This document shows positions 26,886 through 32,620 of a stretch of 64,000 bases of DNA, one piece after another (the stretch's first letter is position 1; every line of letters starts with the position of its first letter). Below the pieces are notes generated by a model. That model did no database searches. It was given only the letters and a program-made list of their open reading frames with translations, and was not told the DNA's origin. This stretch comes from Kangiella sp. TOML190. Its GTDB lineage: Bacteria; Pseudomonadota; Gammaproteobacteria; Enterobacterales; Kangiellaceae. Where the stretch lies: assembly GCF_023706045.1 (NCBI RefSeq), contig NZ_BQYL01000001.1:868001-932000 (forward strand). Direction: 5' to 3'. A program made the translations under genes and the position numbers.

Positions 26886-27853
26886 TGGCGGGCGCAGCAA
26901 AACACGCCAGAGCGCACAAAGTCGGTTTCTTTGACCGTTTGTTTATGGGGCTTAAATTGCACCGAAAAAATGCGCTTGAGAGTCTGCTGAATATTTTAAA
27001 ACACCCGACCAATAGTTTGCTGACCATTATGGTTTTGGCGATTGCGCTGGCGCTACCGGGTATTTTTTATATTATGACCAATAATGCCAAGGCTTTGTCC
27101 GGCAACTGGGATACCAGTATGCAGATGGCCTTGTATTTAGAGGATTCCGCCAGCGAACAGCAAGCACAGCAGCTACTAGCAGAGCTTATCGCAAAGCCAG
27201 AAATTAAAAGTGCTAGCTTGCGCAATAAAGAACAAGTATTAGAAGAGTTTAAGCGCTATTCGGGCTTTGCCGAAGCGCTAGAATTGCTCGACGACAATCC
27301 AATGCCGATGGAAATTACTTTGCTACCCGATGAAACGCAACTTGATACTCAAGCGTTGGCGGCCTTAAAAACCGAATTGGAACAAGAATCATTGGTGGAT
27401 TCGGCCAGCTTGGATATGGAGTGGGTTAATAAATACCAAGAGATCTTAAAAATCTCGGAAAAAATAGGTTCTTTTATCAGTTTGCTATTGGCGATAGGGG
27501 TTTTATTGATCGTCGGTAACACCATTCGCTTGGCAATTCTAAATCGGCGCGAAGAGATCCAGGTGATTAAGCTAGTCGGCGCGACTAATGCTTTTATTCG
27601 CCGCCCTTTTCTTTATACCGGGATCTGGTATGGTTTGATGGCAGGAATTATCGCCGCCTTGATGATCAGCATTTTAAGCAATCTAGTGGCAAACTCCGCC
27701 AGTCGTTTAGCTGAGTTGTATCAAAGTCAATATCAACTGCTGGGGTTAAGTCTTGAGCAAACCCTAATTCTAATCGCTCTGGGCGCCCTACTCGGCTTGA
27801 TCGGCGCTTGGGTTTCGGTTCGCAAACACCTCAAAGAAATTCAACCCAGCTAG
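26885..27853 (+). CDS. ftsX: Cell-division protein FtsX
   Basis: Inner-membrane partner of FtsE that transmits ATPase activity to periplasmic murein hydrolase activators. The 322-aa protein has the expected four transmembrane helices: one at about residues 50-72, then a periplasmic domain with the coiled ELL/LAEL helices, then three at about 195-215, 245-270 and 288-310. NRREEIQVIKLVGATNAFIRRPF near residue 220 is the diagnostic FtsX/permease loop. The gene starts at the last base of ftsE (ATG overlapping TAA) and ends overlapping by 4 bp the convergent sigma-factor gene. Confidence 0.95.
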   Translation: MAGAAKHARAHKVGFFDRLFMGLKLHRKNALESLLNILKHPTNSLLTIMVLAIALALPGIFYIMTNNAKALSGNWDTSMQMALYLEDSASEQQAQQLLAELIAKPEIKSASLRNKEQVLEEFKRYSGFAEALELLDDNPMPMEITLLPDETQLDTQALAALKTELEQESLVDSASLDMEWVNKYQEILKISEKIGSFISLLLAIGVLLIVGNTIRLAILNRREEIQVIKLVGATNAFIRRPFLYTGIWYGLMAGIIAALMISILSNLVANSASRLAELYQSQYQLLGLSLEQTLILIALGALLGLIGAWVSVRKHLKEIQPS

Positions 27854-29106
27854 TTGTTAAGCAACTGTTCTATTTCTAATCGAAAGTGATCTTTCTGGTA
27901 TTGGTTATCGCTGAGTTCAATGGCTTTTTCATAAGCTTGCTTAGCTGAGACTTTATCGCCGATTTGGTTGAGCACCTCAGCTTTAGCTGCATACAGCAAA
28001 TGATAGTTTTTGAGCAGTTTATCTTGTTCAAGCTGCTGGATAATACTCAGAGCCTTTTCAGGTTGGCCACCTTTTAGCAAAGCCACCGCAGCATTTAATT
28101 TCACGATCGGACTTGTTTGGTATTGGTATAACTTTTCATATAGCCAGTAAATTTGTTGCCAATCAGTATCTTGGTAGCGCTTTGCCGCGGTATGCACTGC
28201 GCTGATGGCCGCTTGAATTTGGTATGGCCCCAAGGCTTTTAGGGCAACCGCCTGCTCTAAATATTGGTGGCCTTGTTTTATCGACTCTTGCGACCAGAGC
28301 TTACGATTTTGATCGGCTAGCTTAACGCTACGCCCAAACTTATCTAAACGGGTGCTAAATCGTGCCACGTTAAAATGCATCAATGATAAAAGCCCCAATA
28401 ATTCGACACGCTGGGGTAACAGTCGATTAAGTAATTGGGCCAAGCGAATTGCCTCTAGAGATAAAGCGCTAGAGACTAACAATCGATCCCCTTTGGAGTA
28501 ATAAGCTTCGTTAAAAATTAAATAAATAACGCTTAACGCTGCAGCTAATCTTGCTGCCATGTCTTTAGTTTCCGGTATGGCAAAAGGGATCTTGGCAACT
28601 TTAATTTTACGTTTAGCCCGAACCAGTCGTTGCGCCATGGTGCTGGTTGAAACCAAGAAGGCTTTAGCGATTTCTTCAGTGGCAAAACCACAAACCGTGT
28701 TTAGGGTTAGCGCCACTTGCGAATGTAAATCCAGAGCTGGGTGGCAGCAAGTAAAAATTAACTCAAGCCGATGATCCTCAAGGCCGTCAACAACAGACGG
28801 ATCCTCAAGAATATCTTGAGCAAAGGTAATATAGTTATCAGCTTTTTGTAATTCTGATTGATTTTTTCTAATAAAATCAATGGCTTTTCTTTTAGCGCTG
28901 AGCATTAACCAGGCTTCAGCTTGTTTTGGGATCCCTTTTTCTGACCAAGCTTTAAGGGCGCTGATACTGGCTTCCTGTAGCGCATCTTCGGCCAGCTCGA
29001 TTTGTCTGAATTGACGAATCAATTGGGCTAGCACTTTGCCATAGGATTGGCGCACTAGCCCTTCGATTTGTTGCGAAAGACTAGCGTTGGATGGGTCTTG
29101 AGCCAC
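27850..29106 (-). CDS. ECF sigma factor with C-terminal TPR extension (ECF42-like)
   Basis: An RNA polymerase sigma factor of the large ECF type. Region 2 is ELAEDALQEASISALKAW...AWLMLSAKRKAIDFIRK; region 4 is CGFATEEIAKAFLVSTSTMAQRLVRAKRKIK. A long C-terminal helical part with TPR-like repeats (LNAAVALLKGG...YAAKAEVLNQIGDKVSAKQAYEKAIEL) follows. This architecture and the YCII/DGPF gene directly upstream define the ECF42 group, which is not controlled by a classical anti-sigma factor. I place the start at the GTG at 29106, one base after the YCII stop, giving 418 aa. The longer open frame to 29259 runs through the YCII gene and is not credible. Confidence 0.88.
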   Translation of the reverse strand: MAQDPSNASLSQQIEGLVRQSYGKVLAQLIRQFRQIELAEDALQEASISALKAWSEKGIPKQAEAWLMLSAKRKAIDFIRKNQSELQKADNYITFAQDILEDPSVVDGLEDHRLELIFTCCHPALDLHSQVALTLNTVCGFATEEIAKAFLVSTSTMAQRLVRAKRKIKVAKIPFAIPETKDMAARLAAALSVIYLIFNEAYYSKGDRLLVSSALSLEAIRLAQLLNRLLPQRVELLGLLSLMHFNVARFSTRLDKFGRSVKLADQNRKLWSQESIKQGHQYLEQAVALKALGPYQIQAAISAVHTAAKRYQDTDWQQIYWLYEKLYQYQTSPIVKLNAAVALLKGGQPEKALSIIQQLEQDKLLKNYHLLYAAKAEVLNQIGDKVSAKQAYEKAIELSDNQYQKDHFRLEIEQLLNN

Positions 29107-29107
29107 C

Positions 29108-29461
29108 TTAGCTTGGATATTGCATAATGGGCCTAACCTCAACACTGCCGTACTTGGCGGAAGGGATCTTGGCGGCGTATTGTAAAGCCTGATCCAGATT
29201 GTCACAGTCCAACAAATAGTAGCCGCCGAGTACTTCCTTTGTCTCAGCAAAAGGGCCATCAGTAATTAAGGATTCGCCATTTCTAACTCGAACGGTTGAG
29301 GCGGTGGCGACTGGCTCTAATGGCTCTCCTGCTAGAAATACTCCGTCGGCCTTAACTTCTTCGGTAAAAACGCCGTAGTCTTGAAGCAGCTGCATAAATT
29401 CTGGACTGCCTGCTGTTGGCTCGGCGGACTCGGCAGCATAGATCATCAATAAATATTGCAT
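29108..29461 (-). CDS. YCII-related (DGPF domain) protein, ECF partner
   Basis: A 117-aa YCII-fold protein with MQYLLMIYAAES at the start and ITDGPFAETKEVLGGYYLLD near residue 64, the DGPF signature. Its usual context is beside ECF sigma factors with C-terminal extensions, exactly as here, and it is thought to act in the same unknown signal pathway. The stop codon lies one base from the sigma factor's likely GTG start, so they are translated together. Confidence 0.93.
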   Translation of the reverse strand: MQYLLMIYAAESAEPTAGSPEFMQLLQDYGVFTEEVKADGVFLAGEPLEPVATASTVRVRNGESLITDGPFAETKEVLGGYYLLDCDNLDQALQYAAKIPSAKYGSVEVRPIMQYPS

Positions 29462-31092: not shown

Positions 31093-31455
31093 TTAAGCCT
31101 TTTTTTGCAAAAAACATAAAACCAAACCAAGTAAAGCGGGCAATGCTTGGGTAAATAGGATACTTGGTTTAGCCGTTATAGCGCCAAAAATACCTGCAAC
31201 CACAACACAACCCAAGAAAAACAGCTTAATGTCGCGTCGCCCAGAAATTAATCCCCAAATTAATCCCGCTGCTAAAAAGCCGTTATACAAACCCTGATTG
31301 GCAGCCAAGGTGGCTGAGGCTGAGGCTACTTCGGGACTCATACTAAAGATTTTATGGCCAACTGGATGATCCCAATAGAACATCTCCAACACCATAATGG
31401 CAATATGTTCGATGGCGACCAAGCCAGTGATAATATTTGCTAGCGTTTTTAGCAT
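31093..31455 (-). CDS. DUF1304 family membrane protein
   Basis: A 120-aa protein with four hydrophobic segments (about residues 4-26, 46-68, 73-92, 98-116). The opening LANIITGLVAIEHIAIMVLEMFYW and the NQGLYNGFLAAGLIWGL segment are typical of DUF1304, a family of small inner-membrane proteins of unknown function. It lies upstream of the ilv leader on the same strand, with 42 bp between, so read-through transcription into the leader is possible. Confidence 0.9.
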   Translation of the reverse strand: MLKTLANIITGLVAIEHIAIMVLEMFYWDHPVGHKIFSMSPEVASASATLAANQGLYNGFLAAGLIWGLISGRRDIKLFFLGCVVVAGIFGAITAKPSILFTQALPALLGLVLCFLQKKA

Positions 31456-31560: not shown

Positions 31561-31671
31561 TAATAGAAATCCAAAAGAATCAAGCGTTTAGCAATCATAG
31601 ATTTTTACTATATAGCCAATAGGGATAAATATGAAACTTTTGCCGTGAAATATGCTCTTATAGACATGTGT

Positions 31672-31698
31672 TTAGCACTCTCTATCACGGAGTGCTAA
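31672..31698. promoter_or_regulatory. CIRCE element 1 (HrcA operator) upstream of rpoH
   Basis: TTAGCACTC at 31672-31680, 9 nt, GAGTGCTAA at 31690-31698: an exact match to the CIRCE consensus bound by the heat-shock repressor HrcA. A possible -10 box TATAGA lies at 31659-31664, which would place the transcription start at about 31671, at the edge of the operator. Confidence 0.93.
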
Positions 31699-31702
31699 AA
31701 AA

Positions 31703-31729
31703 TTAGCACTCTAGATTAAAGAGTGCTAA
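31703..31729. promoter_or_regulatory. CIRCE element 2 (HrcA operator) upstream of rpoH
   Basis: TTAGCACTC at 31703-31711, 9 nt, GAGTGCTAA at 31721-31729: a second exact CIRCE. It follows the first after 4 bp, with centres 31 bp apart, so two HrcA dimers would lie on about the same DNA face. It ends 31 bp before the rpoH start and is presumably within the 5' untranslated region. Confidence 0.93.
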
Positions 31730-31760
31730 TATAGAGTGTAAGTATTAATAGGAGGAAAGC

Positions 31761-32609
31761 ATGAGCAACACTTCAATGTCTATGGCGTTAGCCGTACCTA
31801 CAGGCAGCATCGAGGGTTATATCTCGTCTGTCAATGCGATTCCTGTCCTATCTGTAGAAGAAGAACAGGCATTAGCTCATAGCTTCAGAGATGAAGAAAA
31901 TTTAGATGCTGCGCGTCAGTTAGTAATGGCTCACTTACGCTTTGTGGCTCATATAGCAAGAAGTTATAATGGTTATGGTTTGCCGCAAGCGGATCTTATC
32001 CAAGAAGGTAATATTGGCTTGATGAAGGCTGTTAAGCGCTTCGACCCGACCATGGGTGTGCGTTTAGTGTCTTTCGCGGTGCATTGGATCAAAGCGGAAA
32101 TTCACGAGTACGTTTTGAAAAACTGGCGCATCGTTAAAGTGGCGACCACGAAAGCGCAACGCAAACTGTTTTTTAACTTACGCTCGAAGAAAAAGTCCTT
32201 AAGTTGGCTGAATTCGGCAGAAGTTAAAGCGATTGCCGAAGATTTGAACGTATCGCCAGAAGAGGTGGTGCGGATGGAAGGGCGTTTGAATGCGCACGAT
32301 GCGGCATTTGATGCGCCGGCGATTGATGATGATAGCCAGGCTTATGCCCCAGTGCATTATCTTGAGTCGAAAAGCCTCGATCCTGCGGTGGAAGTTGAGC
32401 AAAACGATTGGCAAGATCAGCGTGAAGCGCGTTTGATGTCGGCGATGAAGGCGCTTGATGAGCGTAGCCAAGACATTTTACAGCAACGTTGGCTTTCTGA
32501 TCAAAAGGCTACTTTGCACGATTTAGCTGGAAAATATGGGGTTTCGGCGGAGCGTATTCGTCAATTGGAAAAAAACGCCATGAACAAAATCAAAAACGCC
32601 ATTGCTTAA
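31761..32609 (+). CDS. rpoH: Heat-shock sigma factor sigma-32
   Basis: Directs RNA polymerase to heat-shock promoters. The 282-aa sequence has region 2 ([37 protein letters not shown]), the [12 protein letters not shown] RpoH box near residue 133 that marks sigma-32, and region 4 ([30 protein letters not shown]). A strong AGGAGG stands 5 nt before the ATG. Two perfect CIRCE operators precede it. In E. coli rpoH follows ftsX directly; here a five-gene reverse-strand block separates them. The terminator overlaps the stop codon. Confidence 0.97.
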
Positions 32610-32620
32610 TGGCGTTTTTT
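32592..32620 (+). terminator. rpoH terminator overlapping the stop codon
   Basis: AAAAACGCCATT at 32592-32603 pairs perfectly with AATGGCGTTTTT at 32608-32619 around a GCTT loop, followed by T. The rpoH stop TAA (32607-32609) lies inside the hairpin, so ribosomes finishing rpoH would cover the stem. Confidence 0.9.

Follow-up and report, generated by a model that had tools for sequence, protein, structure and literature searches.

Tandem CIRCE operators interlocked with predicted sigma-E- and sigma-70-type promoters upstream of rpoH in Kangiella

In the textbook scheme, sigma-32 is controlled at the levels of translation and protein turnover, and HrcA is a separate repressor of chaperone genes. 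The activity of HrcA depends on GroEL in well-studied bacteria. The HrcA operator, CIRCE, has likely been described before at rpoH, the sigma-32 gene, in beta- and gammaproteobacteria, and a 2003 work by Permina and Gelfand is reportedly the likeliest earlier report. A CIRCE upstream of rpoH was also predicted in Geobacter sulfurreducens in 2004 (PMC545781). No experimental demonstration of HrcA control of rpoH was found in the open literature searched. Furthermore, sigma-E drives the P3 promoter of rpoH in Escherichia coli (PMC8103513) and Pseudomonas aeruginosa (PMC13104619).

Here we analyzed a 64,000-nucleotide stretch (hereafter called the window) of the genome of Kangiella sp. TOML190, which is complete, in a single contig of 2.45 Mb. 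Two copies of TTAGCACTC-N9-GAGTGCTAA lie upstream of rpoH without a mismatch: CIRCE1 at positions 31672–31698, and the proximal CIRCE2 at 31703–31729 (pattern matches, assigned to neither strand). Their centre-to-centre distance is 31 bp. Beyond these copies, no CIRCE with up to three mismatches occurs in the window, and none of 100 dinucleotide shuffles yielded two matches (mean, 0.03). The ATG codon of rpoH is located 31 bp downstream of CIRCE2, and is preceded by the Shine-Dalgarno sequence AGGAGG at 31750–31755 (+). The open reading frame at 31761–32609 (+) scored 408.6 bits with the NCBIfam model for RpoH (TIGR02392), whose cut-off is 323, and the protein comparison revealed 60% identity with E. 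coli RpoH. The gene is present in a single copy, as the sole other protein match in the genome is a long RpoD-type reading frame with 27% identity. The pattern search and the RpoH profile match thus confirmed the first-pass annotation, which had described two perfect tandem CIRCEs, 31 bp apart, in front of rpoH.

Several other elements surround the gene. The divergent neighbor at 31093–31455 (−) encodes a DUF1304 protein (PF06993, 1.5e-40), and the 305-bp gap separating it from rpoH also contains the rpoH promoter region. A few kilobases away, 27850–29259 (−) encodes a 469-residue protein with an ECF-sigma-like domain at residues 66–221 (TIGR02937, 7e-14), followed by a long C-terminal part with no assigned domain. 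At the other end of rpoH, an inverted repeat (AAAAACGCCATT/AATGGCGTTTTT) with T after it was noticed by eye at 32592–32619. It spans the stop codon, and is likely a terminator overlapping the end of rpoH.

The genome contains one hrcA gene, adjoining grpE, which scores above the cut-offs of both Pfam and TIGR00331 (322 bits for the latter, against 197). At up to two mismatches, the genome harbors just three CIRCEs: the pair at rpoH and a perfect site at 1050785–1050811 (genome coordinates), upstream of groES-groEL, where the first-pass annotation had advised looking for one. No CIRCE was detected in the 16 kb surrounding hrcA, even at up to four mismatches. Since the three CIRCEs lie at rpoH and groES only, the predicted HrcA regulon consists of rpoH and groESL. 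The number is stable in the genus, with exactly three CIRCEs at the same threshold in 19 of 20 genomes and four in the remaining one. Four features expected of an HrcA/CIRCE regulon are found here, namely the operator match, hrcA in the genome, the groESL CIRCE and the conservation in relatives described below.

The tandem arrangement at rpoH, with exactly the 31-bp spacing, was found in all 20 genus genomes. The first-pass annotation had called for a comparison with relatives, and both operators are kept throughout. In CIRCE1, the mean column conservation is 99% in the left arm and 93% in the right arm, as compared to 58% in the N9 spacer, and the corresponding values in CIRCE2 are 98%, 97% and 71%. 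Because the 31-bp pair is retained in 20/20 genomes while N9 drifts, the two repeats are almost certainly HrcA operators, as predicted. Judged by its conservation, the tandem site is real and functional, and the 31-bp phase suggests that HrcA may bind cooperatively. Among the 15 other family members examined, ten have two recognizable CIRCEs at 30–33 bp before rpoH, and all have at least one CIRCE with up to two mismatches; these counts, like those for the genus, come from related genomes and are non-independent observations. CIRCE1 is missing in some of them (loci L030 and L189). In the same order but outside the family, 13 genomes (14 loci) were examined, and only 2 of them carry a CIRCE at rpoH when three mismatches are allowed. 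The operator is dispensable at this gene, since relatives in the order often lack it. The phylum sample of 397 genomes contained no second genuine tandem CIRCE; one genome in the class sample (G282) has a CIRCE pair at 34 bp before rpoH. Another tandem match (G526) was rejected as a chance GCACTT pattern, rather than CIRCE. Across these samples, the tandem form is rare and looks family-specific.

How widespread is a CIRCE at rpoH? We scanned species genomes with a composite pattern, consisting of the CIRCE core, a gap and a conserved RpoH motif. It retrieved at least 119 CIRCE-rpoH stretches, which belong to beta- and gammaproteobacteria according to the record titles, except for one record titled as an alphaproteobacterium. 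All 119 listed matches are CIRCEs at up to three mismatches, and most are perfect. When the class was sampled evenly, the pattern was found in 35 of 276 genomes and the reversed control pattern in none. The pattern has a fixed core and a fixed distance, so both numbers (at least 119, and 35/276) are lower bounds. The hrcA gene is present in 35/35 of the CIRCE-rpoH genomes versus 205/276 in the whole class sample (hypergeometric P = 1.3e-5, with relatedness ignored). One listed record (L129), titled “MAG: Klebsiella pneumoniae isolate AE-03may19-112”, contains CIRCE-rpoH, which is unexpected for an enterobacterium, and the title is probably a mislabel. Considering these counts and the G. sulfurreducens prediction (PMC545781), the idea that the placement at rpoH is exceptional was not borne out: HrcA over rpoH is a recurring, already predicted arrangement. 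We found no earlier description of the tandem form or of the register-locked architecture of sigma-E-type promoter, CIRCE and sigma-70-type promoter described below, and their novelty is uncertain.

Next, we describe the promoter-like sequences around the operators. The right arm of CIRCE2 is fused to a sigma-70-type −10 element, TAATAT (31727–31732, +), recognized by conservation: the two bases lying outside CIRCE2, A31731 and T31732, are conserved in 20/20 genus genomes. The left arm of CIRCE2 would provide a possible −35 element, TTAGCA (31703–31708, +), with an 18-bp spacer. This hexamer is weak, matching TTGACA at four of six positions, and a simple sigma-70 consensus scan made no call for the TTAGCA/TAATAT promoter. 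The fusion recurs in other species. Among the 119 listed rpoH CIRCEs, the two bases flanking the right arm are A in 106 and T in 112, and TA[AG]NAT is formed at the right arm in 105. Under a slightly looser rule, the −10 fusion is present at 15/20 rpoH CIRCEs versus 0/40 non-rpoH CIRCEs, where the window genome's own groES locus (L009) was counted in place of one undetermined locus. CIRCE2 is thus predicted to cover a sigma-70 promoter, with the −10 element fused to its right arm.

This arrangement raises the question of whether both operators are needed. CIRCE2 could repress by itself over the sigma-70 promoter, with CIRCE1 being a tandem copy of little effect. In favor of this, a single CIRCE precedes rpoH in most other species, and CIRCE1 is the less conserved of the two in its right arm (93%, against 97%) and is absent at L030 and L189. 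Nevertheless, both CIRCEs persist in their exact 31-bp phase in 20/20 genus genomes despite the drift of the spacers, and the 30–33 bp spacing recurs in 10/15 other family members. We therefore consider it unlikely that only one operator matters, although this is the most viable of the alternatives.

Upstream of CIRCE1, we identified a predicted sigma-E-type promoter, with the −35 box GAAACTT (31633–31639, +), which has one mismatch to GGAACTT, and the −10 box TCTTATA (31656–31662, +), following a 16-bp spacer. The element (−35, N16, TC) is present in 20/20 genus genomes, as compared to a mean of 0.24 and a maximum of 2 in shuffles. In most of the genus, it lies 16–17 bp before CIRCE1, which supplies the −10 box, in part of the genus through its left arm. 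In the clade of the window, it lies 38–39 bp before CIRCE1 (31633–31662), and CIRCE1 is located at the predicted start. In other species, the −10 box falls in the left arm or the N9 spacer of CIRCE. The first-pass annotation mentioned neither this element nor the sigma-70-type element.

We then applied a full promoter rule to the listed loci: GGAACTT at up to one mismatch, a spacer of 15–17 bp and TC, in register with CIRCE. The rule holds at 67 of the 119 listed rpoH CIRCEs, 56 of them with exactly 16 bp, while the shuffles gave a mean of 0.57 and a maximum of 3. In the class sample, it holds at 12/20 rpoH CIRCEs versus 0/40 groES/hrcA CIRCEs of the same genomes, a control computed without L009 and in both orientations. 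Upstream of the listed rpoH CIRCEs, GGAAC is concentrated at four offsets, from −16 to −11, and these offsets of the −35 box at loci L040–L158 suggest that several independent or shifted solutions may have arisen. The genome encodes one RpoE-class sigma factor, which scores 316.6 bits with TIGR02939 (cut-off, 236), and GGAACTT-N17-TCATT was noticed by eye upstream of its own gene. With this gene in the genome and the boxes properly spaced, a P3-like sigma-E-type promoter of rpoH is predicted.

Alternatively, the sigma-E-like boxes might be coincidental, with only sigma-70 and HrcA acting at rpoH. The mismatch in the −35 box of the window and the 52 of 119 listed CIRCE-rpoH loci in which no recognizable sigma-E box stands in register would fit this explanation. 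The frequencies argue against it, both in the genus (20/20, against a shuffle mean of 0.24) and at the listed loci (67/119, against 0.57, with 0/40 in the controls). Moreover, the boxes are retained at L030 and L032, where CIRCE1 is degenerate or missing, and it is established that rpoH depends on sigma-E in E. coli (PMC8103513) and P. aeruginosa (PMC13104619). A coincidence is thus quite improbable.

Finally, the repeats might function at the RNA level instead of as DNA operators, forming hairpins in the rpoH transcript that serve as a stability element or an RNA thermometer. Substitutions in the arms within the genus changed 24 pairs, of which 20 were broken and none was compensatory. Since arm changes are never compensated, selection acts on the DNA sequence and not on an RNA hairpin. 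For an E. coli-type RNA thermometer over the start region of rpoH, a matter separate from the repeats, the fold of 31739–31970 is not unusual (z-score, −1.14), with no Rfam match above threshold. Although a transcript starting near 31668 could form a long stem from the CIRCE pair (z-score, −3.1), this fold is a trivial outcome of the repeats, which match the HrcA consensus exactly, a transcript from the TAATAT promoter would leave out both of them, and no Rfam family exceeds its threshold; the hairpin explanation is hardly credible and was rejected, on account of the uncompensated arm changes (20/24 breaking the pairing) and the confinement of CIRCE-rpoH sites to genomes with hrcA.

The downstream tier of the cascade would depend on sigma-32-like promoters. 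The strict consensus CTTGAA-N12-16-CCCCAT has four matches in the genome. None is near rpoH, in agreement with the first-pass annotation, which had seen no sigma-32-type promoter there, and none is recognizably located before a chaperone gene. As the search was therefore uninformative, the groES and dnaK promoters were read directly. In 6/6 genus genomes compared, CTTGAG and CCCCATAT are found about 14 bp apart at groES, with CTTGAG inside the spacer and right arm of CIRCE. The dnaK gene is preceded by CTTGAT-N13-CCCTTATA. We take these elements to resemble sigma-32 promoters. With a CIRCE and a sigma-32-like promoter at groES, and a sigma-32-like promoter at dnaK, groESL would be controlled by both HrcA and sigma-32, and dnaK by sigma-32 only. 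At the groES CIRCE of the genus (L009:6786–6850, genome 1050785–1050850), CCCCTTGAG extends across the spacer and the right arm, with CCCCATAT downstream. The same interlocked layout is seen at L161, L163, L164, L170 and L177. The N9 spacer of this CIRCE is conserved, in contrast to those at rpoH.

We conclude, with a probability of about 85%, that HrcA, through the two CIRCEs, gates the constitutive sigma-70-driven and the sigma-E-driven transcription of rpoH, and that sigma-32 and HrcA then control groESL. The observations underlying this conclusion are the conserved sites, the presence of one gene each for HrcA, RpoH and a sigma-E-class factor, and the promoter-like sequences, whose register is fixed. 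The first-pass annotation had proposed a two-tier cascade headed by HrcA. Its tier of HrcA over sigma-32 is the best reading, because of hrcA, the groESL CIRCE, the 20/20 conservation and the putative sigma-32 promoters at groES and dnaK, while HrcA would not stand alone at the top, given the interlocked sigma-E-type promoter.

We propose the following mechanism, in which HrcA binding, promoter activity, GroEL dependence and cooperativity at rpoH are predicted from the sequence. In the absence of stress, HrcA assisted by GroEL would occupy both CIRCEs, possibly cooperatively, as 31 bp corresponds to about three helical turns, and would keep rpoH expression low. When unfolded proteins occupy GroEL, or HrcA itself unfolds, the repression would drop. 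Sigma-70 would then transcribe rpoH, joined by sigma-E under envelope or severe heat stress, and the resulting sigma-32 would turn on dnaK, groESL and other genes. The groESL operon would also be freed directly from HrcA, and GroEL would restore HrcA, thus closing a negative feedback loop.

We give even odds to a broader proposal, that the operator at rpoH evolved within two overlapping promoters, one for sigma-E and one for sigma-70, in a fixed register with them, and was duplicated in the family of the window, one copy for each promoter, as a version of a widespread compound promoter in which HrcA gates the relay from sigma-E to sigma-32. If so, envelope stress would raise sigma-32 fully only when GroEL is overloaded, forming an AND-like gate between the compartments. 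The compound promoter thereby offers a simple, testable prediction of how cytoplasmic and envelope stresses are combined. With a predicted HrcA site on the sigma-32 gene within sigma-E and sigma-70 promoters, three heat-shock circuits would meet in a short stretch of DNA, in many beta- and gammaproteobacterial species by sequence, which cautions against applying the E. coli heat-shock scheme to bacteria bearing hrcA.

How does this locus compare with known systems? In E. coli, GAACTT-N16-TCTGA upstream of rpoH has the same layout and 16-bp spacing as GAAACTT-N16-TCTTATA in the window. Unlike the window genome, E. coli lacks HrcA, as seen in the control genomes, and therefore has no CIRCE at its rpoH. 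In G. sulfurreducens, the available excerpt (PMC545781, Table 8) places a perfect CIRCE at −51 of rpoH and a CIRCE at groESL, and HrcA is predicted to control the sigma-32 gene, as in the window. In contrast, the rpoH CIRCE is single there, another CIRCE precedes hrcA-grpE-dnaK-dnaJ, where the window genome has none, and the excerpt gives no sigma-E interlock. At groESL, the same operator as at rpoH is present in the genus, interlocked with a sigma-32-type promoter. In other genomes, a conserved CTATTA element immediately precedes the groES CIRCE, whereas at rpoH the CIRCE lies on the promoter itself. The locus also resembles the single CIRCE-rpoH loci of beta- and gammaproteobacteria (Variovorax, Acidovorax, Alcanivorax, Rheinheimera, Methylophilus and others), in which the CIRCE is located just before rpoH with the sigma-70 −10 element on its right arm, often with a sigma-E-type promoter in register, as in the window. 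In those loci, one operator would serve both promoters, while in the family of the window each promoter appears to have an operator of its own, the two lying 31 bp apart.
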